Shown here: one piece after another, positions 28,540 through 45,777 of the stretch
Layout of the letters: each line of letters starts with the position of its first letter
How positions within the stretch are numbered: the first letter of the stretch is position 1
Origin: Prosthecobacter fusiformis
GTDB taxonomy: Bacteria > Verrucomicrobiota > Verrucomicrobiia > Verrucomicrobiales > Verrucomicrobiaceae
Reading direction: 5' to 3'
Length of the DNA: 64,000 nt
Assembly (NCBI RefSeq): GCF_004364345.1
Contig: NZ_SOCA01000008.1
Coordinates: 62,001-126,000, forward strand
The notes under the pieces: model-generated
The model's input: the letters and a program-made list of their open reading frames with translations, nothing else
What the model was told of the DNA's origin: nothing
Databases searched by the model: none
Program-made: the position numbers and the translations under genes

Positions 28540-28563
28540 CTGTGGCGAATCATAGTGCGGACC

Positions 28564-29286
28564 ATGAGGAGCCTTCAATCTGATTTGATCATACTGACCG
28601 CAATGCTGGGACTGACATGCGCTAACCCGGCATCTGCCCAGGCTCCAGACAATGCCGATGTACAGACTGCGGATACCCAGGCAGCGGCTGCGATCGGAAC
28701 CTATGTGGGCATGTTCGGCCCTCACAAGATCACCGTCAGCATTGAGAAAATCGTCGGGCGGACGGTCTTGGGATACAGCGTGGTTACGGGCAATGAGCGT
28801 GCTTTCAGTGGTTCCTGGCAGACGGTGGCGGAGGGTATCTCTTTCATCGGCAAGGAGCCAGGGGATCATCCAGAGGACGGGGTCTTTAACCTGTCTTTCA
28901 ATGCCACCAACAAAACTCTGGCTGGCCGCTGGGATGCAAATGACAAAAAGAAACCTTCCGTGGACCTGAGTCTAAAGGCGAGGAAGTTTAAATATGACCC
29001 GTCAGCCGGGGAATACGCCCAGGCTTCCTCCCGAGTGCTCAAAGAGAAAGATGTGGAAAACCTGACCCAGGCTGAGCTGCGGCTGATGCGCAATGAGATC
29101 TATGCCCGGCATGGTTACTCGTTCATCATTCAGGACATGCAGGAGCACTTCGCCAAAGTGGACTGGTATATGCCCGTGGCCCTGGATGTGGCCGACCGGC
29201 TGACCCCTTTGGAAGCCAAAAATGCCGCCTTGATCAAGCGCTACGAAAGTTACTCCTCGGAGTACTATGACAAATTCGGCCGCTAA
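28564..29286 (+). CDS. Secreted YARHG-domain protein
   Basis: 240 residues from the ATG at 28564 (a GTG at 28555 would add three). A signal peptide ends near NPASAQA. The central part is a beta-rich unknown domain. The C-terminal 80 residues contain LRLMRNEIYARHGYSFIIQD, the defining motif of the YARHG domain, usually found in exported proteins linked to the cell envelope. It diverges from the DUF2306 gene and is not obviously in an operon with the epimerase gene 124 bp downstream. Confidence 0.85.
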   Translation: MRSLQSDLIILTAMLGLTCANPASAQAPDNADVQTADTQAAAAIGTYVGMFGPHKITVSIEKIVGRTVLGYSVVTGNERAFSGSWQTVAEGISFIGKEPGDHPEDGVFNLSFNATNKTLAGRWDANDKKKPSVDLSLKARKFKYDPSAGEYAQASSRVLKEKDVENLTQAELRLMRNEIYARHGYSFIIQDMQEHFAKVDWYMPVALDVADRLTPLEAKNAALIKRYESYSSEYYDKFGR

Positions 29287-29410
29287 GTGCCTGAGATTCG
29301 AATAAATTCGATGCTGGACATCCTCTGGCGCGTCGTTTCCTATAGCGCGCGTGCCTGGAAACGGGTGCGTTTTTACGACTTCCAAATCCACTAACCGACA
29401 GCATCATCCT

Positions 29411-30274
29411 ATGGCAAAAATCGAATTTGGCTCCCAGGTCTATACCTGGTTCATGCAGGGTACCGGCAAGGGCTATGATAATAAACTGGACCACATGATC
29501 GAAGTCGCCTCGAAGGCGGGCTTCACAGGCATTGAGCCAATGGTGCTCGAAATCTCCGAAAGCGCCCTGGGCTGCGGCAAATACTGGCTGGGGGATTTCT
29601 GCGATCCAGTGCGCCTGAAGGATGCGCTGCAAAAGTATAACATGAAACTGGCCGGCCTGGCCCTGGTCTGCGCCTGGGATGCCGAAGAAGAAACCCCTGC
29701 GGAAAAGGAAGCTGCAGATTTCACCCTGAACCTGCTGAAGCATTTCCCCGGTGCCATGCTGGGTACCGTGACCCTGCCGAGTGGCCGCAAGAACGACCTG
29801 CAACGCCGCCGCCTGAACGTGGCCCGCAACGTCAACAACGTCTCCAAGCGTGCAGCGGATCTGGGCATCAAGGCCTCCTACCATCCCAACAGCCCCCCAG
29901 CGTCCATCGTGCGCACGCAGGAAGACTACGATGTGGTGCTCAGCAGCCTGGACCCCAAGGTCACCGGCTGGACCCCCGATGTGGGTCACATCATCCGTGG
30001 TGGAATGGACGTCATCGCGACCCTGAACAAGTGGCAGCACTTGGTGAACCACATCCATTACAAGGACTTCTCCGGCGACGGTCCTGAGCCATGGGCACAG
30101 ATGGGCACCGGCAAGCTGGACTTCCACAAGATCACCGAATGGCTCGTGTCCCGCGACTATGAAGGCTGGATCATCTGCGAAGATGAAGCCCACGTAGCCG
30201 TGGAAGATCCCGATGGTGTGACCCTGCAAAACGGCGAGTGGTGCAAGGACAACCTGCACCCCATCGTGGCGTAA
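29411..30274 (+). CDS. Sugar phosphate isomerase/epimerase, xylose-isomerase-like TIM barrel
   Basis: 287 residues from the ATG at 29411 (MAKIEFGSQVYTWFMQGTG). AP_endonuc_2-type barrel: metal ligands are expected in GFTGIEPMVLE, ASYHPNSPP, WTPDVGHIIRGG, NHIHYKDFSGDGPEPW and GWIICEDEA. Such enzymes act on inositols, ketoses or related sugars. It is monocistronic, ending at a strong terminator 36 bp downstream. The exact substrate is not determinable. Confidence 0.88.
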   Translation: MAKIEFGSQVYTWFMQGTGKGYDNKLDHMIEVASKAGFTGIEPMVLEISESALGCGKYWLGDFCDPVRLKDALQKYNMKLAGLALVCAWDAEEETPAEKEAADFTLNLLKHFPGAMLGTVTLPSGRKNDLQRRRLNVARNVNNVSKRAADLGIKASYHPNSPPASIVRTQEDYDVVLSSLDPKVTGWTPDVGHIIRGGMDVIATLNKWQHLVNHIHYKDFSGDGPEPWAQMGTGKLDFHKITEWLVSRDYEGWIICEDEAHVAVEDPDGVTLQNGEWCKDNLHPIVA

Positions 30275-30310
30275 ACAGTAGCTCGTTTATAAGCTGTACT
30301 TCAGACGATC

Positions 30311-30339
30311 AAAGGCAGGCCACGGGGCCTGCCTTTTTT
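30311..30339 (+). terminator. Rho-independent terminator after the epimerase gene
   Basis: AAAGGCAGGCC / GGCCTGCCTTT, 11-bp stem with loop ACGG and a run of six T. Confidence 0.93.
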
Positions 30340-30382
30340 GTGGGCCTGTGCAGCTCGATGACGAAATCCTCTCCAAAAAGCC

Positions 30383-30973
30383 TCACGAATCCCCCAGCAC
30401 GGCACGCAGTTTCCCAGCCGTTTCATTCCAGGCCTCATCATTCATCGCAGGCACGGCAGCGGCAGCCAGGGCCAGCCCTTCCTCAGGCAGGTTCACCCAG
30501 GAACGGCAGCCACCGTAGCTTTTTGAATACGGGAAGCTCCAACGCTCCGGCAGCTTATACGCACGCACCAGCGCCACATGCAGGCAGCTTTCGTCATCGT
30601 AAACGAAGCGCTCTTTCACGATCTCCTCTTTCCAAATATGCAGCGGAGCGATGGCCTCCATCTGTGCCCAGTCCGTGACTTTCCACACCTGTTCCAGGGT
30701 GGCATACCCGTCGATGTCCACACTCGTCCGCTCTTCCTCAGGCGGAAACGACGTGGCCCCTTCTGGCGACCAAGTCAGCCGTTCCGACTGGGTATGAAAC
30801 CAGGTGGGAAACAGGAAAAACTGCCGGTGCTTCCATTCAAAGCCACCCCGCCCTTCATGGATTCCACCCTTGCGCAGGATCAGCGACTGAACGCCCTGCA
30901 CCAGGGAATCACACACATAGGCCCATTCCTTGAAGCCCGCAGACGAAAGAGGTAGATCAGTTTTCAAAATCAA
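30383..30973 (-). CDS. DUF1802 family protein
   Basis: 196 residues matching DUF1802 across its length: FKEWAYVCDSLVQGVQSLIL, RKGGIHEGRGGFEWKHRQFF, LFPTWFHTQSERLTW and SYGGCRSWVNLPEE are the conserved blocks. The family is common in cyanobacteria and Verrucomicrobiota and has no known function. It is the last gene of a three-gene minus-strand run (L,D-transpeptidase, rhodanese, DUF1802) with gaps of about 20-25 bp. Confidence 0.85.
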   Translation of the reverse strand: MILKTDLPLSSAGFKEWAYVCDSLVQGVQSLILRKGGIHEGRGGFEWKHRQFFLFPTWFHTQSERLTWSPEGATSFPPEEERTSVDIDGYATLEQVWKVTDWAQMEAIAPLHIWKEEIVKERFVYDDESCLHVALVRAYKLPERWSFPYSKSYGGCRSWVNLPEEGLALAAAAVPAMNDEAWNETAGKLRAVLGDS

Positions 30974-30994
30974 AAAAGCTCACATTCAGCCGCA

Positions 30995-31342
30995 TCAATA
31001 GCGCGCCATTTCAGGCTCCACCAGGTCCGCCCAGACATCGATGCCGCCGCGCATGGACTGCGCCTGCTTGAAGCCATGCTGCCGCAACCAATTCGCCGCC
31101 CGCTGACTGCGCATCCCGTGATGACAGTAAATGATGATGTGCTCCGCCGGATCGGAAAAGCGCTGCGCTGCCAGTTCGCCGAACTGGGATAGCGGCACCA
31201 GCTCCGCACCCTGGATGCGGCAGATCTGCCATTCATCCTCTTCCCGGCAGTCCACCAGCCTCGGTTTTACCGCTCCAGGGCGGTCCATGAGGTAGTGGGT
31301 ATCATCCACACTCACTTCGAGGGGCAGTTCCGCTGGCTGCAT
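30995..31342 (-). CDS. Single-domain rhodanese-like protein
   Basis: 115 residues. The active-site loop is YCHHGMRSQRAANWL, with the catalytic Cys and a six-residue loop CHHGMR, fitting sulfurtransferases rather than phosphatases; LVDCREEDEWQICRIQGAEL is the CH2A-type motif. It may carry persulfide sulfur. No signal peptide is seen. It is the middle gene of the run with the L,D-transpeptidase and DUF1802 genes. Confidence 0.9.
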   Translation of the reverse strand: MQPAELPLEVSVDDTHYLMDRPGAVKPRLVDCREEDEWQICRIQGAELVPLSQFGELAAQRFSDPAEHIIIYCHHGMRSQRAANWLRQHGFKQAQSMRGGIDVWADLVEPEMARY

Positions 31343-31367
31343 GGCAGGAAAGGCTTAGTGGCTGGGA

Positions 31368-31979
31368 TCAGGGCCGCACAGTGACCGGGGTGCCCTGGGT
31401 CACGTTGTTATAAAAAATCGCCGCCATGTGCGGGGGCATACGCACGCAGCCATGGGAGGCCGGATAGCCAGGGAGGAACCCCTCATGCATGCCGATGCCA
31501 CCCACGAAGCGCATGAAATGATGCATCTTGGAACCTTCGAATCGTGTTCCAGGAGGTGCCTTGTCCTTCGTCACATCCACGTTGGCCACCACCACATTGC
31601 CGCCCGCGTCCACAAAGTCTCCATACAGGTTGGACTTATGCCACTGGTCCTTCTGCGTGATCTTGAATTTGCCCAGCGTCGTCGGGTGCCGCTCATCCCC
31701 GGTGGATAGAGCCGAAACCCCGGCCAGGGAGCTGCCTTTATAAAAATAAGCCTTCTGGTCACTGATATCGATCACGATGCTCGGTGCACCGGACATCCCG
31801 TCACCATCCCAGTAGGAGTCCATGTCCTGGTTATACAGGGCCGAATGCGGCACCGTATTGGAAGCGAATGCCTCCAAATACTGCGTCTGACCGCTTGAGG
31901 AGCCGGACGGGGAAACACAGGAGGCGAGGAGCACCGCCAAACAACCGAGGGCGAGCAAACGAATAGCAGCGGGGGTCAT
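31368..31979 (-). CDS. L,D-transpeptidase (YkuD), lipoprotein
   Basis: 203 residues. The signal peptide has a lipobox (LLASC). The YkuD domain covers residues about 65-203, beginning SIVIDISDQKAYFYKGSSLA and carrying the active-site His/Cys in GYPASHGCVRMPPHMA near the C-terminus. Such enzymes make 3-3 peptidoglycan cross-links or attach proteins to it. With the D,D-carboxypeptidase at 23.4-24.4 kb and the LysM protein at 61 kb, it is one of several cell-wall genes here. Confidence 0.93.
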   Translation of the reverse strand: MTPAAIRLLALGCLAVLLASCVSPSGSSSGQTQYLEAFASNTVPHSALYNQDMDSYWDGDGMSGAPSIVIDISDQKAYFYKGSSLAGVSALSTGDERHPTTLGKFKITQKDQWHKSNLYGDFVDAGGNVVVANVDVTKDKAPPGTRFEGSKMHHFMRFVGGIGMHEGFLPGYPASHGCVRMPPHMAAIFYNNVTQGTPVTVRP

Positions 31980-32127
31980 CGGATAAATAGCGTGAGAAAA
32001 AAGGTGTGATGTGACAACCTGAAAGCATGGATCAACCAGGGCCTTCTGTCCAATGCTTCCTCGTCGCAGAATGCCCGCCCAAGCACTGATATCTTTTGCA
32101 CGATCACATCGTTTTATCCCCCCTCAC

Positions 32128-33195
32128 ATGAATCCCATGAACCGCCGTCGCGCCCTTCAGACCCTTTTTTGCTCCAGTGCTGCCCTGTCCCTGAACCTGC
32201 GCAACCAGGCCTATGCCGCCGTCGCGCCGGAAGCGATTCACCTCCTCGCCATTGGGGATTTCGGCACCGGTGGGCAGGACCAGAAAAACGTCGCCCAGGC
32301 CATGCAGAAATACGTGGCGGATCAAAAAATCAAACCCGCCGGCCTTTGGTTCATCGGTGACAATGTTTACGGCCCCACCTACGAGGAAACTGAAAACTCC
32401 GACGGCAAGAGCATCAAAAACAAGGACAAGACCCAGGAGAAGAAAGAGCCTAAAAAGAGCTTCACCGTCAAGTCCCGGCGCTGGAAGGACGAGATCGAAG
32501 ACATGTATCCCGTCTCCGTTTTCCCCGGCCCGCAGTGGGCCGTCCTTGGCAATCACGACTACCACGACAACGAAGGTGGTGAAAAGGTCCAGCTAGCCTA
32601 TGCCAAAGAAAAAGGCGTGCGCTGGCACATGCCAGAAAAATGGTACCGCGTGGACCTCGGCAGCCCGAAACCCCTGGTCACATTCCTCGCCGTGGACACC
32701 AATTTCGAGTCCATCAGCGGAGGCAAAAGCAGGAAAACCGGCAAAAAGCAAACGCACATGAGCGCCAAGGAGGAGGAAAAGCAGCACGAATGGCTCAAGG
32801 CCGAGCTCGCCAAACCGCGCGCGCCCTTCACCGTCGTCGTCGGCCATCACCCGCTTTATTCCAATGGCAGCCACCGGGATACCCAGCCCCTCATCGAAAA
32901 ATGGGGAGACCTCTTTCAGGAACAAAAAGTCCACGCCTACCTCTGCGGCCATGACCACGACCTCCAGCACCTGGAGCTGGAGGGCAAATTCACCTCCTTC
33001 ATCCTCTCCGGCGGTGGCGGTGCCCGCATCCGCAAGCTGACCAACACCGAGCGCAAGATGCCCTACGGCCTGGACATCAATGGCTTCACCCACCTCCAGA
33101 TTCAGCCGGATTCACTCACCTTCACCCATCACGGTCTCGACGGCGGCGTCCTCCATCGTTTTGCCAAAAAGCTCGACGGCAGCGTGGTGATGTGA
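32128..33195 (+). CDS. Tat-exported metallophosphoesterase (acid-phosphatase-like)
   Basis: 355 residues from the ATG at 32128, beginning MNPMNRRRALQTLF, a twin-arginine signal peptide ending near QAYA. Metal-binding motifs of the calcineurin fold are LAIGDFGTGG, WFIGDNVYG, AVLGNHDYHD, VVGHHPLYSNGSH and YLCGHDHDLQH, all intact. A Lys-rich loop (about residues 95-125) interrupts the usual spacing. It should be a periplasmic phosphatase similar to purple acid phosphatases. Its last 229 bases (from 32967) recur at 39887-40115, a sign that the gene originally adjoined the 85-codon gene now at 40129. Confidence 0.9.
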   Translation: MNPMNRRRALQTLFCSSAALSLNLRNQAYAAVAPEAIHLLAIGDFGTGGQDQKNVAQAMQKYVADQKIKPAGLWFIGDNVYGPTYEETENSDGKSIKNKDKTQEKKEPKKSFTVKSRRWKDEIEDMYPVSVFPGPQWAVLGNHDYHDNEGGEKVQLAYAKEKGVRWHMPEKWYRVDLGSPKPLVTFLAVDTNFESISGGKSRKTGKKQTHMSAKEEEKQHEWLKAELAKPRAPFTVVVGHHPLYSNGSHRDTQPLIEKWGDLFQEQKVHAYLCGHDHDLQHLELEGKFTSFILSGGGGARIRKLTNTERKMPYGLDINGFTHLQIQPDSLTFTHHGLDGGVLHRFAKKLDGSVVM

Positions 33196-33247
33196 GGGCG
33201 ATCCAGCACCATAAGAACTCGTTCTCCTCATTCCTGTTCTACCTCTC

Positions 33248-33706
33248 ATGAAAGATCTCGGACTTCTGAGTTCCATTTTAGTTACGATCGTCCTGCTCCT
33301 CATACTGATACCTTTTGGAAGCAGTCTCCTGCATGTGTCCCTGCATCCTGATAGTGTCGAAAATAAGACCAAGGCAGAGATAGAGCACTATCATCAAATC
33401 CAGATGGCCTCCAATATCAGCCCCGTTGGTGAAGAATCTGAGAGCTTACATGCAGCCGTGAATTATGTGACAGGTGTTGCCCACGGCTCAATGTGGCTGA
33501 AAATTATTCCTGTGAGGATTGCCTGCTACCCTAAAATTGCATCGGTCTGTCTTTTGGCCCTTATCGTGTTTGTGGGATGCTGGATCGCCCTCGTCCTCCT
33601 GCCCCCTCCGTCATTGGCCGGATCTTCAACCTTCAAGAATGGCACATCCCAGATTGAATGGACCAGCACTCTTGATGTGCTTCGTTCTGATTCCAGCGAG
33701 CCATGA
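33248..33706 (+). CDS. Small putative membrane protein inside the disrupted repeat
   Basis: 152 residues, unrecognised. Two hydrophobic segments: LGLLSSILVTIVLLLILIPF at the N-terminus and ASVCLLALIVFVGCWIALVL near residue 105, so probably two membrane spans with an extracytoplasmic middle. It occupies a 533-bp stretch (33201-33733) that separates two sequences contiguous in the other copy of the repeat, so it was inserted there. The composition is less GC-rich than its neighbours. The coding call is moderate. Confidence 0.6.
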   Translation: MKDLGLLSSILVTIVLLLILIPFGSSLLHVSLHPDSVENKTKAEIEHYHQIQMASNISPVGEESESLHAAVNYVTGVAHGSMWLKIIPVRIACYPKIASVCLLALIVFVGCWIALVLLPPPSLAGSSTFKNGTSQIEWTSTLDVLRSDSSEP

Positions 33707-33739
33707 GAGACCTTCCGATAGAGACATTGTGCTCACGCC

Positions 33740-33859
33740 TCACCTCCCCAGCACCCGCACATCTTGCGCCTGGTTCATCTCCTGCTGCCGTTCACTCGGC
33801 AGCGGGGTGTTTAAAAGGGTGATGATCATGCTGCCTAGCACATAGATCAGGCCCGCACC
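33740..33859 (-). pseudogene. Truncated copy of the 85-codon membrane protein gene (3' end only)
   Basis: Forty codons including the stop, matching the end of the intact gene at 40129-40386 (IYVLGSMIITLLNTPLPSE, MNQAQDVRVLG) with a few substitutions. Homology stops abruptly at 33859, and the frame then continues into unrelated sequence under the large protein gene. It is a remnant of the segment duplication, not an expressed gene. Confidence 0.85.
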
Positions 33860-33879
33860 ACCGCGCTGCGACCGGTCGG

Positions 33880-36800
33880 TCACGGGCGAGTGAACCTCAC
33901 TTCGCCTGAGACTTTTTCGGGGCTCGGGGCACTTGGCAGGGCGGGCAGCAGGTAGTGGCCGTCGCCGATCAAGATATCGGGTGCCGTGGCAGGCTGGCGT
34001 AGGACTCCGATGAAGGTCACGACACGCGGTTTTGCACCCGTGTCGGCGAGTTCGAAGCTGCCACTGAAGAGACCCGTCGTCGGCACCAGCGTGGTTTTCC
34101 ACTTGGTGGGGTTCACGGGCGTGGTCTCGGGAAGTTGCACGCTGACGACGTTCTTGAGGCTCAAGCCGACGCGGGTGGGGAGATTGCCATTCAGCGTGCT
34201 GCCTGTGTCGCTGTGCCACACGCCAAAGCTGCCGTCGGTCAAGCCGAGCCGTGCCGCTAGGGTGATGGCCGGGGTTGATCCCTTGGCGGCGACCGGGAGC
34301 AGCCAGGGGTCGAGCATCATCACCGTCGTTACCGGGCCGAAGCCGACGCGATACGTGGCATCCGCAGCGAGGCCCTCCTTTTCCCAGATCAGGCCGGCCT
34401 CTTCGACATAACGGCGGTTTGCCAGCGTTGGGTGCGGCAGCAGGGTGAAGACTCCGCCGAGGCTGGACTCCCTGCGTGATTTGTAAGGCTGCACAAAGAG
34501 GCGGTAGCCAGGGTCTGGGTCCTCATCCGGGGCCAAGGAGGTGGTGAAGACGGTGCCATCCGCCAGCCTTCCCGCCAGGGTCATCACACCCGTGGTGCTG
34601 AGGGTCGATTTCGCCCAGCCGGCTCCTGCAGGGATGTCTCCGGCTGCGGGCAGCGCGGGCTCCAGCACGACCGTGTGGGCACCGCCGTAGAGCACCTTCC
34701 CGCCTTTGGGTAGGAGCAGGAGCTTGCGGCCCGTCACGGCTCCGCCAAGGGGCTGGGCAGCGCGCGAGGCGGTCACGAGCATGTCCCCCTGCATCGGCAG
34801 CGTGAAGCTGACGACATAGGGTACGCTGCCCTTCATCACGGTGCAGGTTCCGGTCGCGAGTTCGTCGCCCACGTTGGTCGTCAGACTGCCCTTCAGGGAC
34901 AAGGCGGCGGTCTCCGTGGCGGTGGCGAGCTTGCCGGTGAATGCCTGGCCGGTGAGCGGCACCGTCAGCGTCAGCTTGCCCACGGGCAGAGCGTCGGCAT
35001 CCACCAGCAGTGCTTCATAACTCCCGCCAAAACTTTCCACCACCATCGTGCCCTGCTGATAAACAAACAGGTAGTTAGACGCAACACCGCCGCTGGCCGT
35101 GATCAGGTAGAGCCCACCGCCACTGGTGGCCTTGGCCGTCGTTTTCAGCACGGGTGTTTTGGTAAACACCGCCACCGTGTCCGATTCCCTGAAGCCGCTG
35201 TAAACGACCGTCAGTTCGGGATTCTCTTGGCCGGCGAACTTGCGCTTGTCATCGGGCGTCACGTAGAGCGGGGCCTTGTTGATGGTGAGTGAGCCGGTCT
35301 TCGTGCCGCTGCTGTCCGTGGCCTTCACACTGTATTTGCCCGCAGCCGTCGGGGCGGTGCTGCCAAAGACTGTGCCGATCTTGTATTCGATCATCACCTC
35401 GCCGCTGCCGCCCAGGGTGCCGATGGCGCGCGGCGTACCCGTGTAGGTCTGGGCGAGATCGACCAACGTCAGCGTTGCGGGCGTCGCTTTCACCGTGATC
35501 GTTTTCACCACGGTCTTGGCGGCGGCATAACTGCCGTCCCCCGCCTGCACGGCCTGCACCTTCACCTTGCCGATGCCGGTAAAACCCAGGACATTCCCCG
35601 CGAAGCTGGCCCCTGCGGCGGTGGTCCCGACGGGCACCACACTCAGGGTCACCGGCAGCCCCGAGCTGGCATAGGCACTCAGGTTCAGCGGACTCTGGCC
35701 GAGGTAAACCGTCGTCGGAGGAGTAAAGGTGATCGTTTGGGCCAGCGGCTTGGTCAGGCCACCGAAGCCGGTGATGGTGAAGCTGTAAATGCCGTTCGCG
35801 CCATCATCACTGGCCACCGTCACCGTTGCCGTGCGGAGGCCCGGTAGGAGGGGATCGAAGGTGATGGCGAAGGTTGTCTGGTCACTCGCGGCCACAGCGG
35901 CAGCGGGGGGCGTCGTCACCTTAAAATCCGCCGCGCCGGGGCCGCTGAGGACCACGGCGGGGCTGGCGAGATTCAGCGTAGCATCACCGCCATTGGCGAT
36001 GGTGAAGAGGTGAGTCACGGGCGTGTTGATCAGCGCCACGCGGCCAAAGTCGGTCGCGTCCGCCGCATCAGGTGTAGTGTCGCCATTGGTGATGGGCTGG
36101 TCCTTGCCCAGGATCGCGATCACTGGCTCTGCCACGTCGAGAATTGTGAGGGTGAAGACCTGCTCATGGAGACCGCCCTCGCCGTCATCGGCCTGTACAC
36201 GGATGCTGTAGGTGCTCTTCGTTTCGTAGTCTGCGCTCACTGAGATTCGCAACTGCGTGTCGACGATGCTGAAGGAGTCGTTGTCCGTGTCCCCGGTGCC
36301 TTCGACGAGGCTAAAGGTGTGTGTTGAGTCTGGATCGGGGTCTGTCGCACTCAGCGTGCCCACCGTGGCATTGGCCAAGTTGTTCTCAGACACCGTGCTG
36401 CCGCTCAATGCCAGGGCCGTCGGCGCATCATTCACGTCCGTGATCGTGATGGTAAAGCTGTTTTCAAAGATCAGGCCGCCGGAATCAATCGTGCTCACTC
36501 GCACGCTGTAACTGCTCTGGGTCTCATAGTCGGGCACGTCAGTGAAACGCAACGCACTGCCGGAAATGTTAAAGGCCGCATTGTCCGTGCCGCCTGTCCC
36601 TGACACCAGCGTGTAGGTAAAGGTGTCGCCCGCATCTGGGTCCGTGCTGCTCAAGGTGCCCACCGTGCTGTTGGGAGCCGAGTTCTCAGGCAGCGTGTCA
36701 GCACTCAGAGCCAAAGCCGTCGGCGATTCATTCGAGTTCGTGATCGTGATGGTAAAGCTGTGCTCAAAGGTCAGGCCACCTGAATCCGTCGTGCTCACTC

Positions 36801-39519
36801 GCACGCTGTAGCTGCTCTTCGTCTCATAGTCGGGCACGGCAGAGATCCGCAACGCATCGCCGGAGATGTTAAAGGCCTCATTGTCCGTGCTGCCCGTGCC
36901 TGTCACCAGTGTGTAAATGAAGGTTTCAGGGCCATCCGGGTCCGTGCTGTTCAAGGTGCCCACCGTGCTGTTGGCCGCCGAGTTCTCATGCAGCGTGGTA
37001 TGGCTCAGTGCCAGGCCCGTCGGTGCCGAATTGCTGACGGTAGCCACCTGCACCGCCGGGTGGCTGCTCAGGCCATGGGTGGTGACCACCGCGTTCAAAG
37101 CACCCGGCCTCAGGCCGCTGAGGCTGGTCACGGTCAAAGAGGTGGCCGTGGAGGCCGTCACGGTGCCGGAGCCTGCGGGGCTGAAAACCACGGTGTTGTT
37201 CCCGGGCGTCGCGGCGTCAAAGTTCGTGCCGGTGATGGTCAGGGTGGTCGCAGTGCGGATCAGGCCCCCGGTGTTCAGGGCCACCGTCGGGGCGGGCACC
37301 ACATACGTGTAGAGCGAGTTCGCCACAGACTGGCCGCCGGACGTGGTCACCTGGAGGCTGACCGGGCCTGCCTCATGGGCCGGAGCCGTGGCCGTGATCG
37401 TGGTGTCATTGACCACTGTAAAAATCACCGCCGCCACCCCGCCAAAGGTCACGTCCGTAGCCCCGGTAAAGCCCGTGCCGGTGATCGTCACGGTGGTGCC
37501 GCCTGCGGTGCTGCCGCTGGCGATGTCCACCCCGGTCACGGCAGGTACAGGTGCCACCGGGCCCAGGCCGGTGAAAATATAAGCCGCTCCAGAACCGCTG
37601 GCCAGCTCATTGGGCGTGCCGTTGATCCCCGGCGTGCCGCCGTCCTCCTGATACGCCCCGACCACCACCGTGTCCCCGCTCACCGCCACCGAAAAGCCAA
37701 AGTAGTCACTGGCCGTGACCTGCGCCGCCTTCAGATAGGCCTGCTGGCTCCACTCCGTGCCGCTGCGCACAAACACATACGCCGCTCCAGAAGCGCTGGC
37801 ACTCTCATCAGGCGTGCCGTTGACCCCCGGCGTGCTGCTGTCCTCCTCCCTCGCCCCGACCACCACCGTGTCCCCGCTCACCGCCACCGAAAAGCCGAAC
37901 TGGTCACTGGCCGAGACCTGCGCCGCCTTCAGATAGGCCTGCTGGCTCCACGTGCTGCCGCTGCGCACAAACACATACGCCGCTCCAGAAGCGCTGGCAC
38001 CCTCATTGGGCGTGCCGTTGACCCCCGGCGTGCTGCCGTCCTCCTGATACGCCCCGACCACCACCGTGTCGCCGCTCACCGCCACCGAAAAGCCAAAGTA
38101 GTCATCGCCCGTGACCTGCGCCGCCTTCAGATAGGCCTGCTGGCTCCACTCCGTGCCGCTGCGCACAAACACATACGCCGCTCCAGAAGCGCTGGCACTC
38201 TCATCGGGAGTGCCGTTGACCCCCGGCGTGCTGCTATCCTCCTGAGTCGCCCCGACCACCACCGTGTCCCCGCTCACCGCCACCGAAGCGCCAAAGTAGT
38301 CACCGCCCGTGACCTGCGCCGCCTTCAGATAGGCCTGCTGGCTCCACTCCGTGCCGCTGCGCACAAACACATACGCCGCTCCAGAATTGCCGACCAGCTC
38401 ATCAGGCATGCCGTTGATCCCCGGCGTGCTGCCATCCTCCAGATACGCCCCGACCACCACCGTGTCCCCGCTCACCGCCACCGAATCGCCAAACTGGTCA
38501 TTCATCGTGACCTGCGCCGCCTTCAGATACGCCTGCTGGCTCCATGTGCTGCCGCTGCGGACAAACACATACGCCGCTCCAGAATTGCTGGCATTCTCAT
38601 TGGGCGTGCCGTTGACCCCCGGCGTGCTGCTGTCCTCCTCCCTCGCCCCGACCACCACCGTGTCCCCGCTCACCGCCACAGACCAGCCAAAGCAGTCACC
38701 CACGCCGGCATACCCCAGGCTCTCTAACGAGGGCTTCACATAGGCCTGCTGGGCGATAGGGTCGATGGTGATGGGGTAGCGCGCCGCGCCCTCCTGCACC
38801 CGCAGGATGATGCCGCCCGCCGGCCCAGCAAGGAAATGCGAGGCCAGGACCTGCCCGTCCGCATCCCAGACCTTCAGCCCGGCGTAAGTCACCACCGGAG
38901 CGCCTGCGGCATCGCGGAAATAAATGGTCTGCGCATCCGCCGCCACGCTGGCCTTCAGCGTGCCGCGCGTGCCCAGCACCACGTCCAGCTCCGCCCCGGC
39001 CGCCGCGCCCTCAGGACGGCGGGCCATGGTGAAGCCATGCTCCAGACCGCGCTCGTCATTGACGAACCACTCCTGCACGTCCGCATCCCACTGGTAGCTG
39101 AGGCGCTGCCCCTCCGCCTTCACTGCAGGCCGGCCTGCGACCGCCCGCTGCTGCCGCCCGAAGCCGTAGCTGCGCAGTTCCAGCCCCCACTGCCAGTCAG
39201 CCCCTTTCGGACGCGCCAGAAATCCGCGCCCGTCGAACTGCGTGATCCACTGCTGGCCGCCATTCCGCGCCTGCCAGCCGTCCTCCATGGGCAGGAAACT
39301 GTGCTCCCAGGCCTTGTGCGCCGCGCGGATGTTTTGCCAATCGGACTTGCCCAGCCCCTCGGGCACTTGGTCAGGGGAGGTCATCTGTTGGGGCTTGCCC
39401 GTCGCAACGGGAGTCTGCTCGGCCACCTGGGCGGGCTCGGCCTGAATCTGCGTGGCAGCGAAAAGCAGGGTGACCATCAGGCCACAGATGACATGGGAAA
39501 CAGGCAGACGGATCATCAT
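33880..39519 (-). CDS. Giant secreted repeat protein: FG-GAP, IPT, cadherin-like and MBG domains
   Basis: 1879 residues with a signal peptide (VICGLMVTLLFAATQIQA). Order: a propeller-associated domain (about 60-265), six FG-GAP-like repeats of 66 residues each built on FGxSVAVSGDTVVVGA, two IPT/TIG domains (VTGVDIASGSTAGGTTVTIT), three cadherin-like repeats of 100 residues each (DYETKSSYSVRVSTTDSGG), a choice-of-anchor-D-type domain, Ig-like and MBG segments (YVTPDDKRKFAGQENPELTV), and a C-terminal region of about 400 residues without a PEP-CTERM motif. It is a likely adhesin or surface protein that binds calcium and glycans. It lies between two copies of a 362-bp repeat, which indicates insertion at this site. 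Confidence 0.9.
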   Translation of the reverse strand: MMIRLPVSHVICGLMVTLLFAATQIQAEPAQVAEQTPVATGKPQQMTSPDQVPEGLGKSDWQNIRAAHKAWEHSFLPMEDGWQARNGGQQWITQFDGRGFLARPKGADWQWGLELRSYGFGRQQRAVAGRPAVKAEGQRLSYQWDADVQEWFVNDERGLEHGFTMARRPEGAAAGAELDVVLGTRGTLKASVAADAQTIYFRDAAGAPVVTYAGLKVWDADGQVLASHFLAGPAGGIILRVQEGAARYPITIDPIAQQAYVKPSLESLGYAGVGDCFGWSVAVSGDTVVVGAREEDSSTPGVNGTPNENASNSGAAYVFVRSGSTWSQQAYLKAAQVTMNDQFGDSVAVSGDTVVVGAYLEDGSTPGINGMPDELVGNSGAAYVFVRSGTEWSQQAYLKAAQVTGGDYFGASVAVSGDTVVVGATQEDSSTPGVNGTPDESASASGAAYVFVRSGTEWSQQAYLKAAQVTGDDYFGFSVAVSGDTVVVGAYQEDGSTPGVNGTPNEGASASGAAYVFVRSGSTWSQQAYLKAAQVSASDQFGFSVAVSGDTVVVGAREEDSSTPGVNGTPDESASASGAAYVFVRSGTEWSQQAYLKAAQVTASDYFGFSVAVSGDTVVVGAYQEDGGTPGINGTPNELASGSGAAYIFTGLGPVAPVPAVTGVDIASGSTAGGTTVTITGTGFTGATDVTFGGVAAVIFTVVNDTTITATAPAHEAGPVSLQVTTSGGQSVANSLYTYVVPAPTVALNTGGLIRTATTLTITGTNFDAATPGNNTVVFSPAGSGTVTASTATSLTVTSLSGLRPGALNAVVTTHGLSSHPAVQVATVSNSAPTGLALSHTTLHENSAANSTVGTLNSTDPDGPETFIYTLVTGTGSTDNEAFNISGDALRISAVPDYETKSSYSVRVSTTDSGGLTFEHSFTITITNSNESPTALALSADTLPENSAPNSTVGTLSSTDPDAGDTFTYTLVSGTGGTDNAAFNISGSALRFTDVPDYETQSSYSVRVSTIDSGGLIFENSFTITITDVNDAPTALALSGSTVSENNLANATVGTLSATDPDPDSTHTFSLVEGTGDTDNDSFSIVDTQLRISVSADYETKSTYSIRVQADDGEGGLHEQVFTLTILDVAEPVIAILGKDQPITNGDTTPDAADATDFGRVALINTPVTHLFTIANGGDATLNLASPAVVLSGPGAADFKVTTPPAAAVAASDQTTFAITFDPLLPGLRTATVTVASDDGANGIYSFTITGFGGLTKPLAQTITFTPPTTVYLGQSPLNLSAYASSGLPVTLSVVPVGTTAAGASFAGNVLGFTGIGKVKVQAVQAGDGSYAAAKTVVKTITVKATPATLTLVDLAQTYTGTPRAIGTLGGSGEVMIEYKIGTVFGSTAPTAAGKYSVKATDSSGTKTGSLTINKAPLYVTPDDKRKFAGQENPELTVVYSGFRESDTVAVFTKTPVLKTTAKATSGGGLYLITASGGVASNYLFVYQQGTMVVESFGGSYEALLVDADALPVGKLTLTVPLTGQAFTGKLATATETAALSLKGSLTTNVGDELATGTCTVMKGSVPYVVSFTLPMQGDMLVTASRAAQPLGGAVTGRKLLLLPKGGKVLYGGAHTVVLEPALPAAGDIPAGAGWAKSTLSTTGVMTLAGRLADGTVFTTSLAPDEDPDPGYRLFVQPYKSRRESSLGGVFTLLPHPTLANRRYVEEAGLIWEKEGLAADATYRVGFGPVTTVMMLDPWLLPVAAKGSTPAITLAARLGLTDGSFGVWHSDTGSTLNGNLPTRVGLSLKNVVSVQLPETTPVNPTKWKTTLVPTTGLFSGSFELADTGAKPRVVTFIGVLRQPATAPDILIGDGHYLLPALPSAPSPEKVSGEVRFTRP
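36130..37030 (-). repeat. Three tandem 300-bp units encoding cadherin-like domains
   Basis: Each unit encodes about 100 residues starting TxLALSxxTxxEN and ending SFTITITxxNxxP. The first two units (5' side of the gene) are closely similar at the DNA level and the third is more diverged, consistent with internal duplication. Boundaries are approximate. Confidence 0.8.
37560..38720 (-). repeat. Six tandem 198-bp units encoding FG-GAP-like propeller blades
   Basis: Near-identical units recur every 198 bases, for example the segment encoding WSQQAYLKAAQVT. Differences cluster in a few codons (REEDSS, YQEDGS, TQEDSS). Six blades of one seven-bladed-type propeller are visible; a last, diverged blade may lie outside. 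The high identity points to recent expansion or gene conversion. An antisense frame through the array is an artefact of the repeats. Confidence 0.9.
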
Positions 39520-39744
39520 AAATGAAAAAGCAGGTGAGGACGAGGGGCCCGGTTTTTTCGCATTCGAATTGCCTACTAGGAAGGTCCCCTCATAACAAAC
39601 GCTGTTCCATTTATTTCACGCACCCTGTTCTCATGTTTAAGAAAATTGAAGTTGATTTTCCCCTAAACATTTTGTTTATTCACCTATACAGTTCAGGCAT
39701 TACCTATGAGCATTAATGCCATCCACGTGCTGAACACCCCTGCT

Positions 39745-39886
39745 AGCCCTGGACGACGGCAGCGCCACCCATGAGGTCGAGGTCGGCCTGAAACAAACGA
39801 TGGAGGCAGACCTGCGCCCTCATCGCCGCCCTGAAGGGGGACACAACGGCTAAGCCACCCACGGCGGGACTCATCATCCAGCACAT
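39745..39886 (+). pseudogene. Decayed coding fragment next to the right-hand repeat
   Basis: Protein-like stretches occur in two frames, LALDDGSATHEVEVGLKQT first and then CALIAALKGDTTAKPPTAGL about 80 bases later, running into the metallophosphoesterase tail at 39887. This looks like the frameshifted end of an unidentified gene. The preceding 39520-39744 is AT-rich, presumably holds the promoter of the giant gene, and shows no other feature. Confidence 0.3.
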
Positions 39887-40115
39887 GCACCTGGAGCTGG
39901 AGGGCAAATTCACCTCCTTCATCCTCTCCGGCGGCGGCGGTGCCCGCATCCGCAAGCTGACCAACACCGAGCGCAAGATGCCCTACGGCCTGGACATCAA
40001 TGGCTTCACCCACCTCCAGATTCAGCCGGATTCACTCACCTTCACCCATCACGGTCTCGACGGCGGCGTGCTGCATCGCTTCGTGAAAAAGCTCGACGGC
40101 AGCGTGGTGATGTGA
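39887..40115 (+). pseudogene. Truncated copy of the metallophosphoesterase gene (3' end only)
   Basis: Matches 32967-33195 without gaps; I count about seven differences by eye. It encodes the last 75 residues, including GLDINGFTHLQIQPDSLTFT, down to the same stop. The upstream 70 percent of the gene with all metal ligands is missing, and there is no signal peptide, so it cannot be functional. Confidence 0.88.
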
Positions 40116-40248
40116 GGGCGCCCACGCCTCACTTCCCCAGCACCCGCACATCCTGCGCCTGGTTCATCTCCTGCTGCTGTTCACTCGGCAGCGGCGTGTT
40201 TAAAAGGGTGATGATCATGCTGCCCAGCACATAGATCAGGCCCGCACC
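39887..40248. repeat. Right copy of a 362-bp direct repeat flanking the giant gene
   Basis: Continuous here; the left copy is split into 32967-33200 and 33734-33859. Within each block the two copies align without gaps. The repeat spans the junction between the metallophosphoesterase tail and the tail of the 85-codon gene, so this side preserves the ancestral junction. Confidence 0.9.
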
Positions 40249-40386
40249 CAGCCCTGCACCGATGGCGATCAGGCGGCGCTGCATCACATTTTCCCGGTCG
40301 ATAACGGTATAAAATCTCATGCACAGCAACACCCAGAGGGCGCTGAGCAGAAACAGGGCGGCTTTGGCGAGCATTCCCTCATTCAA
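40129..40386 (-). CDS. Small integral membrane protein, intact member of the duplicated pair
   Basis: 85 residues with two hydrophobic segments (AKAALFLLSALWVLLCMRFY and GAGLGAGLIYVLGSMIITLL) joined by a charged loop (TVIDRENVMQRRLIA). No known domain. The C-terminal tail (QQEMNQAQDVRVLGK) is polar. It is convergent with the metallophosphoesterase tail, 13 bp apart, which was probably the original arrangement with the full gene. A truncated copy lies at 33740-33859. Confidence 0.7.
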   Translation of the reverse strand: MNEGMLAKAALFLLSALWVLLCMRFYTVIDRENVMQRRLIAIGAGLGAGLIYVLGSMIITLLNTPLPSEQQQEMNQAQDVRVLGK

Positions 40387-40524
40387 CCAGAGCTTTCTGG
40401 CCCTGACGAGTGAAAATCACCTGTGGGGTGTCGGACACATGGCAGATTTTTTTCAGAAATTTCCCGTTCATTTGCTTGACGCTGGGCCTGGGTGCCTATC
40501 CTTCCCACCTTTCCCCTCCTGCTG

Positions 40525-41376
40525 ATGAACGAGACCCAGATCCAGAAAGCCGATGTCCTCCTTGAAGCCCTGCCGTACATGCAAGGCTTTCGAGGGTGCA
40601 CCTTTCTCATCAAGGTCGGCGGCAGCGCCATGGAGGACCCTACGGTGGTGGATACTTTCCTCAAAGACGTCGTCTTCCTGGAAGCCGTCGGCATCAATCC
40701 TGTCATCGTTCATGGCGGTGGCAAGGCCATCTCCAAAGCCATGAAGGACAGCGGCCTGGAGGCCAAGTTCATCAACGGCATGCGCGTCACCGATGAGGAG
40801 ACCATCAAAATCGTCGAGCAGACCCTCGCCCGCGTCATCAACCCTGAAATCGTCAACAAGATCAATGCCTTCGGTGGCAAGGCCGTCGGCGTTCCCGGCA
40901 CTGAAGTCTTCACGGGCGAAAAGATGAAAGGCGACCTCGGCTGGGTCGGCGAGGTCAGTGATTGCAGGCTGGGCCTTATCCAAGCCGCCGTGGCCGGTGA
41001 ATTCGTCCCTGTCGTCTCCCCCGTCGCACGGGAAACCGCCAGCGGCAAAACCCTCAACGTCAATGCCGACCTCGCCGCCTGTGCCCTGGCCACCCGCCTG
41101 AAGGCCACCAAGCTCATCTTCCTCAGTGATGTGCGCGGCGTCATGCGCGACCCCAAGGATGACACCACCCTTATCCCCAGCCTGAACCCGGAGGCCATCG
41201 AAGGCCTGAAAAAAGAAGGCATCATCAGCGGCGGCATGATCCCCAAGGTGGATTCCTCTCTGGAATCCCTCCGAGGTGGCGTGGGGAAGGTGCACCTCAT
41301 TGACGGGCGCATTCCTCACGCACTCATTTTGGAGATCTTCACCGATGTGGGGATCGGCACAGAGATTCACCTCTGA
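40525..41376 (+). CDS. argB: Acetylglutamate kinase
   Basis: Second step of arginine synthesis, phosphorylating N-acetylglutamate. 283 residues from the ATG at 40525 (MNETQIQKADVLLEALPYMQ). Amino-acid-kinase motifs: FLIKVGGSAM, VIVHGGGKAIS, NADLAACALATRLKATKLIF and IISGGMIPKVDSSLESLRGG. The N-terminal helix typical of arginine-sensitive hexameric enzymes is present, so feedback inhibition is plausible. First gene of argB-argD-argF. Confidence 0.96.
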   Translation: MNETQIQKADVLLEALPYMQGFRGCTFLIKVGGSAMEDPTVVDTFLKDVVFLEAVGINPVIVHGGGKAISKAMKDSGLEAKFINGMRVTDEETIKIVEQTLARVINPEIVNKINAFGGKAVGVPGTEVFTGEKMKGDLGWVGEVSDCRLGLIQAAVAGEFVPVVSPVARETASGKTLNVNADLAACALATRLKATKLIFLSDVRGVMRDPKDDTTLIPSLNPEAIEGLKKEGIISGGMIPKVDSSLESLRGGVGKVHLIDGRIPHALILEIFTDVGIGTEIHL

Positions 41377-41433
41377 TCGCCCCCGCTGAAAGCTCAGCGG
41401 ACAGGACTAACCAATTTTTCAGGATTATACACG

Positions 41434-42735
41434 ATGGACAGATTGAATGATTTCGACCCGGCTTGGATGGACCAGTATGTGATGCCTAACTATGGGCGTT
41501 TCCCCCTGTGGCCAGAGCGCGGCGAAGGGCCGTACCTATGGGATACCGACGGCAAAAAGTATGTGGACTTCGCCGGTGGCGTGGCTGTCTGCCCGCTGGG
41601 CCATGCCCATCCGGAGGTGGCCGATGCCATCGCCGCGCAGGCACACAAGCTCATCCACGTTTCCAACTGGTACTGCATCAAAGGCCAGGCCCAGCTCGCC
41701 CGTATCCTGGTGGAGGAAATCGTCCGCATTCCAGGGAAATGTTTCTTTAGCAACAGCGGTGCTGAGGCCAATGAAGGCATGATCAAACTGGCCCGCAAAT
41801 ACGGCGTCACCAAGCCCCTGCCGGATGGCAGCCCGCGCTATGAGATCATCACCTTCACCGGCAGTTTCCATGGCCGTACCTTTGGTGCCATGAGCGCCAC
41901 GGCTCAGGAGAAAATCCATGGTGGCTTCGGCCCCATCGTGCCCGGTTTTGTTTACGTGCCCTTCAATGATGCCGCCGCCCTGAAGCAGGCCATCACGGAA
42001 AGGACCGTCGCCATCCTCTTTGAACCCATGCAGGGCGAAAGCGGCGTCAATCCCGCTACCCCGGATTTCCTGCGCACCGTCCAGTCCCTCTGCCAGCAGC
42101 ACGATCTGCTCATGCTGCTGGATGAAGTCCAGTGCGGCCTCGGGCGCACCGGTGAAACCTGCGGCTGGCGCTCCATCATCCCTGGGGATGAAATCCAGCC
42201 GGATGCCATTAGCTGGGCCAAGTCCATCGGCAGCGGCTACCCCCTCGGCTCCTTTTGGATCAAAGACCGCCCCCTGGGTGAGGCCCACCCGCAGAAGCTC
42301 TGCGACCTCCTCGGCCCCGGCACCCATGGCACCACTTATGGCGGCAGCCCCTTGGCCTGCGCCGCCGGTCTCGCCACCCTGAATGTGATCCTGCGGGACA
42401 ATCTTCCAGCGCACTCCGCCACCCTCGGTCGCAAGATCGCAGGTGAAGTCGCCTCCTGGAAACAGCCTCTCATCACCGACATCCGCGCCTTTGGCATGAT
42501 GATCGGGTTTGAGCTGGCTGAAGCCGCCCTCATGGCCAAAACCGCCATCAGCACCTCCGGCAAGATCGCCTCCATCTATGTGGCCAAAGCCATGCTGGAT
42601 GCCGGCCTCCTCGTCGTTCCCGCCGGACCCAAAGTCGTCCGCTGGCTCCCCCCCATGAACCTCACCGACGCCCAAGCCGCCGAGGCCCTGGCCATCTTTA
42701 AAACGGTCCTCAGTGATTTAAGCAACCTTAGTTAG
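41434..42735 (+). CDS. argD: Acetylornithine aminotransferase
   Basis: PLP-dependent class III aminotransferase of 433 residues. Key blocks are YVDFAGGVAVCPLGHAHP, FFSNSGAEANEGMIKLARKY, ITFTGSFHGRTFGAMSATAQ, MLLDEVQCGLGRTGE with the PLP Asp, and the Schiff-base Lys in ISWAKSIGSGYPLGSF. It is slightly longer than usual (about 400) because of small insertions around GETCGWRSIIPGDEIQ. It lies 57 bp after argB, same operon. Confidence 0.94.
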   Translation: MDRLNDFDPAWMDQYVMPNYGRFPLWPERGEGPYLWDTDGKKYVDFAGGVAVCPLGHAHPEVADAIAAQAHKLIHVSNWYCIKGQAQLARILVEEIVRIPGKCFFSNSGAEANEGMIKLARKYGVTKPLPDGSPRYEIITFTGSFHGRTFGAMSATAQEKIHGGFGPIVPGFVYVPFNDAAALKQAITERTVAILFEPMQGESGVNPATPDFLRTVQSLCQQHDLLMLLDEVQCGLGRTGETCGWRSIIPGDEIQPDAISWAKSIGSGYPLGSFWIKDRPLGEAHPQKLCDLLGPGTHGTTYGGSPLACAAGLATLNVILRDNLPAHSATLGRKIAGEVASWKQPLITDIRAFGMMIGFELAEAALMAKTAISTSGKIASIYVAKAMLDAGLLVVPAGPKVVRWLPPMNLTDAQAAEALAIFKTVLSDLSNLS

Positions 42736-42738
42736 ACC

Positions 42739-42789
42739 GGATTTACAGGAAGAAGCCCTTCAGCCTTCAACTCCCCCTCCTGTTAATCC
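42739..42789. repeat. Imperfect inverted repeat of the GGATTTACAGGA/TCCTGTTAATCC type
   Basis: GGATTTACAGGA (42739-42750) and TCCTGTTAATCC (42778-42789) pair with one mismatch across a 27-base loop, between argD and argF. The same TCCTGTTAATCCTGTCAAAA sequence occurs once more at 19137-19156 before deoC. It looks like a dispersed intergenic repeat of unknown function. Confidence 0.5.
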
Positions 42790-42815
42790 TGCAATCCTGT
42801 CCAAAAACTCCACAG

Positions 42816-43715
42816 ATGAAACATCTCCTTTCCATCGAGCAGCTCAGCGCCGCTGAGATCGAAAGCCTGCTCGAGCAGGCCGCCGTTCTGAAGAAGAACC
42901 GCAAAACCTGCCCCCAGGTGCTGGCGGGCCAGAACTGGGCGCTCATTTTCAGCAAATCCTCCACCCGCACCCGCGTCAGCTTCGAAGTCGGCGTCCGCGA
43001 GCTCGGTGGCCAGGTCATGTTCCTCTCTTCGGCAGACATTCAGTTAGGCCGGGGTGAGCCCATCAAGGATACCGCCCGCGTCATGGGCCGCATGATCGAT
43101 GGTGCCATCATCCGCACCTTCGCCCAGCAGGATGTCGTGGACTTCGCCGAATACAGCGGCATCCCCACCATCAATGCCCTCACCGATGACGAGCACCCCT
43201 GCCAGATCCTGGCCGACCTGCAGACCATCAACGAGCGCTTCGGCTCCTGGAAAGGTCGGCGCGTCGCCTTCCTCGGCGATGGCGATTGCAACGTCGCCCG
43301 CTCCTGGATCTGGGCCAGCGCCCGCCTCGGGTTCGAGCTGGTCATCGGCGCTCCCAAAGAGTTTCAACCTGCCGCCAGCTTCATGGCGCAGATCCCCGGA
43401 AACACCGTCACCATCACCGATGATCCCAAAGCTTCCGTGGACGGCATCGATGCCATCTACACCGACGTCTGGGTCAGCATGGGCAAGGAAGAGGAAGCCG
43501 CCGGCCGCATCGAAACCCTGCGCCCCTGGCAAATTAACAGCGATCTTTTGAAACACGCCAAAAGCGACGCCATCGTCATGCATTGCCTGCCCGCCTATCG
43601 CGGCAAAGAGATCACCGAAGAAGTCCTCGAAGCCCAGGCCAGCGTCATCTTTGACCAAGCCGAAAACCGCCTGCATGCGCAGAAAGCCGTCCTCGTTGCC
43701 CTGGCCCGGAAGTAA
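42816..43715 (+). CDS. argF: Ornithine carbamoyltransferase
   Basis: Makes citrulline from ornithine and carbamoyl phosphate. 299 residues. The carbamoyl-phosphate loop is FSKSSTRTRVSFEVGVRELG, followed by HPCQILADLQTI and the ornithine-site region DAIVMHCLPAYRGKEITEEV; DAIYTDVWVSMGKEEE is the expected OTC motif. It separates from aspartate carbamoyltransferase by HCLPAYRG. Third gene of the arginine cluster, 80 bp after argD. Confidence 0.95.
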   Translation: MKHLLSIEQLSAAEIESLLEQAAVLKKNRKTCPQVLAGQNWALIFSKSSTRTRVSFEVGVRELGGQVMFLSSADIQLGRGEPIKDTARVMGRMIDGAIIRTFAQQDVVDFAEYSGIPTINALTDDEHPCQILADLQTINERFGSWKGRRVAFLGDGDCNVARSWIWASARLGFELVIGAPKEFQPAASFMAQIPGNTVTITDDPKASVDGIDAIYTDVWVSMGKEEEAAGRIETLRPWQINSDLLKHAKSDAIVMHCLPAYRGKEITEEVLEAQASVIFDQAENRLHAQKAVLVALARK

Positions 43716-43757
43716 TCCCTCGTTGACCTCGGTGGCCTGAGAACCGAGCACTGTCCC

Positions 43758-44210
43758 ATGCACCGCCACACCCTCACCGACCGCGTCCAGTTCGCCGATA
43801 CGGACATGGCGGGCATTGTCCATTTCTCCAATTTCTTCCGTTACATAGAGCGTGTGGAGCATGATTTCTTCCGCGCTCTAGGCATGTCCATCTGGGACAA
43901 ATCCGCCGAGATTCCCGTGGATGAGCGTGTGGGCTGGCCGCGGGTGCATGTCTCCTGCGACTTCCGCGCACCGCTTGTTTTTGAGGAGGAATTCACCATG
44001 GAGCTCCTTGTGGAGGAAGTGCGGCCCAAGACCCTCCGTTACCTCGTCCGTTTTTGGAAGCAGGATGGCGCACTGAGTGCTGAAGGAAAACTCGTCGCCG
44101 CCTGTGTGCGCAGAGATCCTGCAACAGGCAAAATGAAAGCCGTCACCATCCCGGATCGTATTCGCTCCCGCATCACCGCCGCTCCACCCGAGCTGCTCGC
44201 CCCCGTCTGA
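43758..44210 (+). CDS. Hotdog-fold acyl-CoA thioesterase (YbgC/4HBT type)
   Basis: 150 residues. QFADTDMAGIVHFSNFFRYI contains the catalytic Asp of the 4-hydroxybenzoyl-CoA thioesterase family, followed by ERVEHDFFRALGMSIWD. The remainder forms the hotdog strands (HVSCDFRAPLVFEEEFTMEL). The substrate is unknown. It follows argF by 42 bp and may be co-transcribed, though a metabolic link to arginine is not apparent. Confidence 0.88.
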   Translation: MHRHTLTDRVQFADTDMAGIVHFSNFFRYIERVEHDFFRALGMSIWDKSAEIPVDERVGWPRVHVSCDFRAPLVFEEEFTMELLVEEVRPKTLRYLVRFWKQDGALSAEGKLVAACVRRDPATGKMKAVTIPDRIRSRITAAPPELLAPV

Positions 44211-44232
44211 TCTCACTCCCTCTCCCGCTCTC

Positions 44233-44850: not shown

Positions 44851-44874
44851 GCTCGGCACCCCATCATGACCCGC

Positions 44875-44905
44875 GAAATAACCAGGAATGGCTCCTGGTT
44901 ATTTC
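44875..44905. terminator. Perfect 13-bp hairpin between the two GYF_2 genes
   Basis: GAAATAACCAGGA / TCCTGGTTATTTC with a 5-base loop ATGGC. The right arm supplies a TTATTTC tail, so it can act as a terminator for the first gene. Confidence 0.75.
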
Positions 44906-44985
44906 TCCATTCCATCACCTAAGAATTGACAGGCGGTGCAAACAGTCCATTTGAAGCAGCAGACGCATCTCCTGAAGCCCGCTGC

Positions 44986-45645: not shown

Positions 45646-45777
45646 TTCGGATCACCTCACCCGCCTTACACTTCAGGCTCAGAACCAAGAATAACTTGGT
45701 TCATGAAGGTTTTTGATCCACATAAGCCGCCTCCAACGTTTCCCACCGACGTGAATCCCTCAACCCCCAAATCCACC

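Follow-up and report, generated by a model that had tools for sequence, protein, structure and literature searches.

Introduction

Insertion-duplication, or Campbell, integration leaves the cargo between two directly repeated copies of the target. At the locus of Prosthecobacter fusiformis described here, a direct repeat of the target likewise flanks the cargo; unlike in Campbell integration, no vector, origin or circle is known for it, and the repeat comes from the same lineage. It is common for integration hotspots to lack recognisable mobile elements, and the flanks of such hotspots recombine, according to the part of the hotspot study drawn on here (Oliveira et al., 2017, PMC5635113). Our locus resembles the hotspots treated in that part of the study in that conserved flanking genes enclose rapidly turning over genes, and differs from them in that the comparison runs across species, with six genomes, and in that one insertion left a duplicated junction. 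The displacement of older genes has elsewhere been explained by homology-facilitated illegitimate recombination (PMC5361080). As in cases of that kind (PMC5361080; see also PMC3240628), an incoming module lies here beside older gene ends without an integrase; unlike here, those cases involve a single homologous anchor, and no two-gene junction is duplicated in them. Lastly, repair at adjacent nicks (patch repair; Vaughn and Bennetzen, 2014, as referenced in PMC7971508) has been proposed to duplicate local segments in rice, where, in the sections of that paper used here, tandem duplications drop to a share of 5% by 200 bp, the longest being 4.9 kb (PMC7971508). That system differs from ours in being a plant one, and capture of a large insert is no part of the account in those sections. 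In the parts relevant to this comparison, none of PMC5635113, PMC5361080, PMC3784515 and PMC7971508 describes the present locus. It belongs to a known kind, that of integrase-free addresses with cargo turnover, of which it is a well-preserved case whose footprint is informative.

Results

The window is the whole 64-kb stretch of P. fusiformis DNA that was analysed, and plain coordinates refer to it; G000 denotes the source genome, and G028, G029, G030, G040 and G049 are five sister species. The left flank of the cargo is an intact metallophosphoesterase gene of 380 aa (32053-33195, + strand; Pfam Metallophos, E 8.8e-14), with an orthologue at the same place in all five sisters. The right flank is an intact 85-codon gene (40129-40386, - strand), for which a homologue was found in 33 of 33 genus genomes searched and in none of five genomes of the same order outside the genus. 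It is followed by an argB-like AA_kinase gene (40492-41376, + strand; Pfam AA_kinase, E 5.8e-42), which we take to be argB and which also follows the 85-codon gene in G028, G029, G030 and G040 (in the last case, the start of the gene), and not in G049. In G049 (L085:5157 onward, L086) we observed that the 85-codon gene and argB are no longer linked, with argB on another contig and the phosphoesterase-85-codon pair kept.

The junction between the two flanking genes is present twice. The right copy (39887-40248, 362 bp) is contiguous and consists of the phosphoesterase 3' end (39887-40115), a 13-bp spacer and the 3' part of the 85-codon gene; the stop codon of the phosphoesterase gene reaches to 40115 and that of the 85-codon gene lies from 40129 on, in agreement with an earlier note on this DNA, which had read the right side as the end of one gene, 13 bp and the end of the other. 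The left copy is made of two blocks. Block 1 (32967-33200, + strand), the phosphoesterase 3' end plus 5 bp, matches 39887-40120 over 234 bp with 7 mismatches (97.0% identity), and block 2 (33731-33859, - strand), an orphan 3' end of the 85-codon gene with 39 codons and a stop, matches 40120-40248 over 129 bp with 6 mismatches (95.3%). In a self-BLAST of 28000-46000, the two blocks score E 7e-110 and 5e-55, and no other direct repeat with a spacing above 2.5 kb reaches E <= 1e-3; a DNA search of the source genome (5.83 Mb, 32 contigs) with the right copy as query returned exactly three matches and no further copy. The repeat is far beyond chance, and the direct repeat that the earlier note had placed around the insertion is borne out by alignment. 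The same note had described the left copy as an intact phosphoesterase gene with only the tail of the 85-codon gene, which is correct; it had passed over the 530 bp (33201-33730) that separate the two blocks.

This second insert (+ strand) is absent from the right copy, contains an ORF of 152 aa (33248-33706) and has a GC content of 48.5%, against 58.7% for the 64-kb window. The 152-aa ORF matched only one of 48 genus genomes, its own, and had no match among plasmids, phages and viral contigs or in Pfam, PADLOC, NCBIfam and PHROGs; the insert as a whole had no convincing relative among the loci compared. A TBLASTX pair between the insert and L064 (E 0.001) was judged to be chance. At the other end of the cargo, the sequence from the giant gene start to the right junction copy (39520-39886) is also AT-richer (GC 51.2%) and had no convincing BLASTN or TBLASTX match among the loci compared, and an Rfam search of the window gave no match.

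Some short words lie near the breakpoints. An exact 15-nt inverted repeat pairs 33194-33208, at the left edge of the 530-bp insert, with 33578-33592 in the insert interior, a length that none of 1000 shuffles reached; a search of 31000-42500 for inverted repeats gave one imperfect 28-nt pair, at the left edge and inside of the same insert. The word TCCAGCAC occurs where the left repeat (32963) and the 530-bp insert (33202) start and immediately ahead of the right repeat (39877), and in all eight times in 64 kb (shuffle mean 3.4; two of 100 shuffles reach 8). Since ATCCAGCA, which overlaps TCCAGCAC, is over-represented throughout the window (11 occurrences against a shuffle mean of 3.1), TCCAGCAC is less special than it looks. 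Both the word and the 15-nt inverted repeat suit template switching; they were noticed post hoc and carry no weight here.

Repeats are a classic cause of misjoins, and the structure could in principle be an artefact of assembly; against this, the two copies differ at 13 positions and by the 530-bp insert, the contig is 243 kb long, and the genome is 99.91% complete with 0.38% contamination. We consider an artefact extremely unlikely.

The two copies resemble each other far more than either resembles any sister. Their phosphoesterase tails are 96.1% identical over 232 nt, and either tail is 75.0-82.1% identical to each of G028, G029, G030, G040 and G049. Because the copies are 96% identical and the sisters at most 82%, the junction was duplicated inside the lineage or came from a conspecific. 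A sister species as donor of the junction copy was considered and rejected, since in the phosphoesterase tail none of the five exceeds 82.1% identity to either copy. The 13 differences between the copies may be changes that followed the insertion or may reflect a conspecific donor. When the seven differences of block 1 were polarised by eye in an alignment with the five sisters, the left copy looked derived at four, the right at one, and two were undecided; this does not tell which copy is native, because six of the seven are clustered within 16 bp (33150-33165). The ancestral order proposed in the earlier note, phosphoesterase then 85-codon gene, with the two adjacent and convergent before the insertion, is supported both by the closeness of the copies and by the overlapping stop codons of G049.

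Between the copies lies an uninterrupted giant gene of 1879 codons (33880-39519, - strand), with FG-GAP repeats, TIG, cadherin repeats and MBG (Pfam) and choice-of-anchor-D (NCBIfam) domains, from which we predict that its product is probably a large secreted surface or adhesin-like protein. Its C-terminal module (aa 659-1879; 33883-37545, - strand) is 80% identical to a giant at G049:C2, and its N-terminal module (aa 1-649; 37573-39519, - strand) is 74% identical to a giant at G028:C12, the switch falling between 37545 and 37573. The G049:C2 giant has 2004 aa, with an N-terminal part of another repeat type (DUF5650), and the G028:C12 giant has at least 3321 aa, its frame running off the contig. 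As judged by sequence comparison, then, the P. fusiformis giant is chimeric, each half matching a giant from a different species at another locus. Among the flanking ORFs of 120 aa or more at 11 giant loci, none is common to any two loci at E <= 1e-20, except for one pair at 30% identity, several of these loci ending at a contig end with some flanks missing; giants therefore seem to be placed at unrelated loci. With its two halves found in giants elsewhere in other species, the inserted giant is not unique cargo.

Within the FG-GAP region of the N-terminal module we noted five repeat copies at 198-bp spacing (37574-38665), the other four being 88-94% identical to the reference copy. Elsewhere in the window (56258-59986), an ORF of 1242 aa carries passenger-associated transport repeats and is autotransporter-like.

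DNA searches of the P. fusiformis genome found no close second copy of the giant. The only other related giant that they returned (C4:83922-90941) is 50% identical over the C-terminal module, and no related giant lies beside the G000 orthologues of the genes that adjoin the G028:C12 and G049:C2 giants. With neither a close resident copy nor a giant at an orthologous position, the giant was probably not copied from a resident gene that still exists.

We compared the same address across the genus. A DNA search with the phosphoesterase gene gave a match in 38 of 48 genus genomes, and both genes were sought in 33. The pair lies less than 16 kb apart on one contig in six of these 33, namely G000 and its five sisters. 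It is on different contigs in 23, some of which separations may be contig breaks; three genomes have no phosphoesterase match (G008, G009, G015), and the match in G012 is 38 bp only. Among 61 public verrucomicrobial and planctomycete loci (L104-L164, out of 80 matches listed), examined with flanks of up to 10 kb, the pair occurs in one, the G040 contig. The rest of the block has gaps below about 0.6 kb (by match coordinates) wherever the genes are linked.

Contents of the address differ among the sisters. In G049 the phosphoesterase and 85-codon stop codons overlap, and the address is empty. In G040 the genes are 180 bp apart, and the gap holds a 3' stub of a G028-type giant in the same orientation (L061:522-623; TBLASTN, 44% over 34 aa, with E 6e-6 for a 60-aa query searched against six chosen stretches and E 0.001 for the whole protein). 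In G028 and G030, 7.6 and 7.9 kb separate the genes and contain another giant of 1505 aa (DUF7453, Ig-like domains) in the same orientation, 90% identical between the two species, together with an SCO1/SenC-CusF copper-type protein and a protein of 401-428 aa without a Pfam match (L083:6276-8816, L084:9858-12397); G028 has a thioredoxin-like protein in addition. G030 also carries, near the 85-codon gene, a decayed direct copy of the 3' end of its own giant (L084:12486-12585; 104-bp alignment, 74%), 7.5 kb from the intact 3' end, so direct repeats bracket this cargo too. In G029, 14.8 kb of small genes lie between the pair, including SLATT_5 and FRG proteins that match defence-associated PADLOC models. 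The compact junction that the earlier note expected in relatives is thus seen in G049, and less cleanly in G040, with its 180 bp and giant stub.

The G029 cargo (L081:5668 to L082:4976) is itself a 15-kb run of small genes, mostly on the same strand, with recurring direct repeats between them (alignments of 31-173 bp). It has the look of a cassette array, with two attC-like ends by eye, and was considered as integron cassettes, an identity that we do not claim: strict R''/R' pairs are few (four in 25 kb), and when the folding of 14 repeats was compared with mononucleotide shuffles, the z of 10 stayed between -1.5 and 1.5 on both strands. The repeats at 10405-10610 and 16155-16320 had z below -2.5 on both strands; on one strand, z was down to -2.6 for 6300-6430 and -3.9 for 18375-18430.

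The same flanks enclose differing cargo in six of six clade genomes, with five different contents. The address is a recurrent cargo-turnover site in one Prosthecobacter clade, with repeated gain and loss. Two trees with outgroups, one from the proteins of three genes and one from the DNA of four genes, join G000 with G049 at supports of 0.90 and 0.93 and G028 with G030 at 1.00, the outgroups in these concatenates being incomplete for some genes; in a third tree, without outgroups, the support for G000 with G049 is 0.68 only. By parsimony, the site probably held a G028-type giant before it became compact on the G000/G049 branch, a conclusion that depends on the short G040 stub and on the placement of G040 as an outer branch (supports 0.935 and 0.995). 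The compact state of the junction may itself result from cargo lost earlier. The proposal that the giant entered with duplication of the junction stands, but the site was probably not virgin, given the other giant in G028 and G030 and the stub in G040.

These sister states bear on a stepwise origin, with a tandem duplication at the address first and a later deletion or replacement between the copies that left junction pieces around the giant. The decayed second giant 3' end in G030 and the truncated giant in G040 suggest that partial duplication and deletion do occur here. In another species, tandem duplications driven by transformation have been documented (PMC3784515). Against a stepwise origin, no remnant of the 5' half of the 85-codon or phosphoesterase gene was seen between the copies in P. 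fusiformis, beyond a doubtful 15-nt extension (33860-33874), and we consider this origin unlikely.

Pfam searches found no recombinase family in either of the two G000 cargo ORFs scanned, the giant and the 152-aa ORF, which agrees with the earlier statement that no transposase or integrase remains, and no replication or mobility family in the same two. Cargo ORFs of at least 80 aa in the sisters likewise gave no recombinase, integrase or transposase in four of four in G028, four of five in G030 and 18 of 21 in G029 (one scanned in part), the four left out being 86-126 aa long. Signs of transposition are lacking in that these ORFs gave no transposase, the one inverted pair in 31000-42500 lies at the left edge and inside of the 530-bp insert, and the duplication is 362 bp, not short. 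Attachment sites in gene ends restore the 3' ends of their target genes. The cargo could accordingly be the remnant of an integrative element, with the repeats as attL and attR at convergent 3' ends and the recombinase lost or acting in trans: the repeat does restore the 3' ends of both target genes, and several species use the same address. However, apart from the lack of a recombinase among the scanned cargo ORFs, the window contains no tRNA, the repeat, 362 bp long and differing at 13 positions, does not resemble a short identical core, and in none of the other five species is the end of either flanking gene duplicated at the address (self-BLAST of G028, G030 and G029 found no flank-gene duplication). 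An integrative element is therefore a very unlikely source.

Discussion

We favour, tentatively and at somewhat less than an even chance, a compact junction followed by a single illegitimate entry of the giant gene through break-repair capture at a recurrent cargo site. The address would first have become compact in this lineage, with the two genes 13 bp apart. The giant gene would then have entered in one illegitimate event in which the junction was copied to both sides, so that both flanking genes would have kept intact 3' ends. Repair of broken DNA at the junction could have joined ends that shared an overlap of about 360 bp, such as those of two sister chromosomes, either by end joining or by template switching, and have captured a giant fragment from elsewhere. 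We infer the loss-then-gain order, the repair mechanism and a source outside this genome alike. An overlap of 360 bp is long for end joining as it is usually described.

The earlier note had instead pointed to single-crossover integration of a circular DNA, as giving exactly this pattern. Indeed, Campbell-type (insertion-duplication) integration by homologous recombination of a circle carrying the giant and a 360-bp copy of the junction would yield the exact order of repeat, cargo and repeat with both genes restored, and a 360-bp repeat is long enough for homologous recombination. The pattern is not diagnostic, however, since the same product arises when ends overlapping by 360 bp are repaired by end joining or template switching. 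Such a circle would have needed a junction piece of this very lineage beforehand (the copies are 96% identical, all others at most 82.1%), the two scanned cargo ORFs contain no replication or mobility family, and no circle was seen in plasmids, phages and viral contigs, which were searched with the 152-aa ORF only. We regard integration of a circle as possible, if rather doubtful. Repair capture and a circle predict the same structure with the same two novel joins, and nothing distinguishes them; we slightly prefer repair capture, as it needs no preformed circle with the lineage's own piece of junction and as Ku and both LigD parts are encoded side by side in the genome.

In G000, Ku is encoded beside LigD ligase and LigD polymerase genes (C1:793018-793557; L186:6992-10452). 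Ku is patchy in the genus (eight of 48 genomes); it is present in G049 and G029, where the junctions are unduplicated, and was not found in G028, G030 or G040 (the last 87% complete). Ku therefore does not track the gain of cargo.

We think it improbable, as a wider generalisation, that giant modular surface-protein genes are exchanged at this fixed address by recombinase-free rejoining with overlaps of hundreds of base pairs, possibly through Ku and LigD; if they are, the duplicated and decayed gene ends of G000, G030 and G040 would be footprints of such exchange. Gene entry into hotspots without mobile elements is mostly deduced from statistics. Here a footprint is kept, with both junction copies, a second insert in one of them, and sisters that are compact, stubbed or filled with other cargo, and the mechanism of entry is therefore testable in an environmental bacterium. 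At this address, giant adhesin-like genes behave as replaceable cargo built from exchangeable modules.
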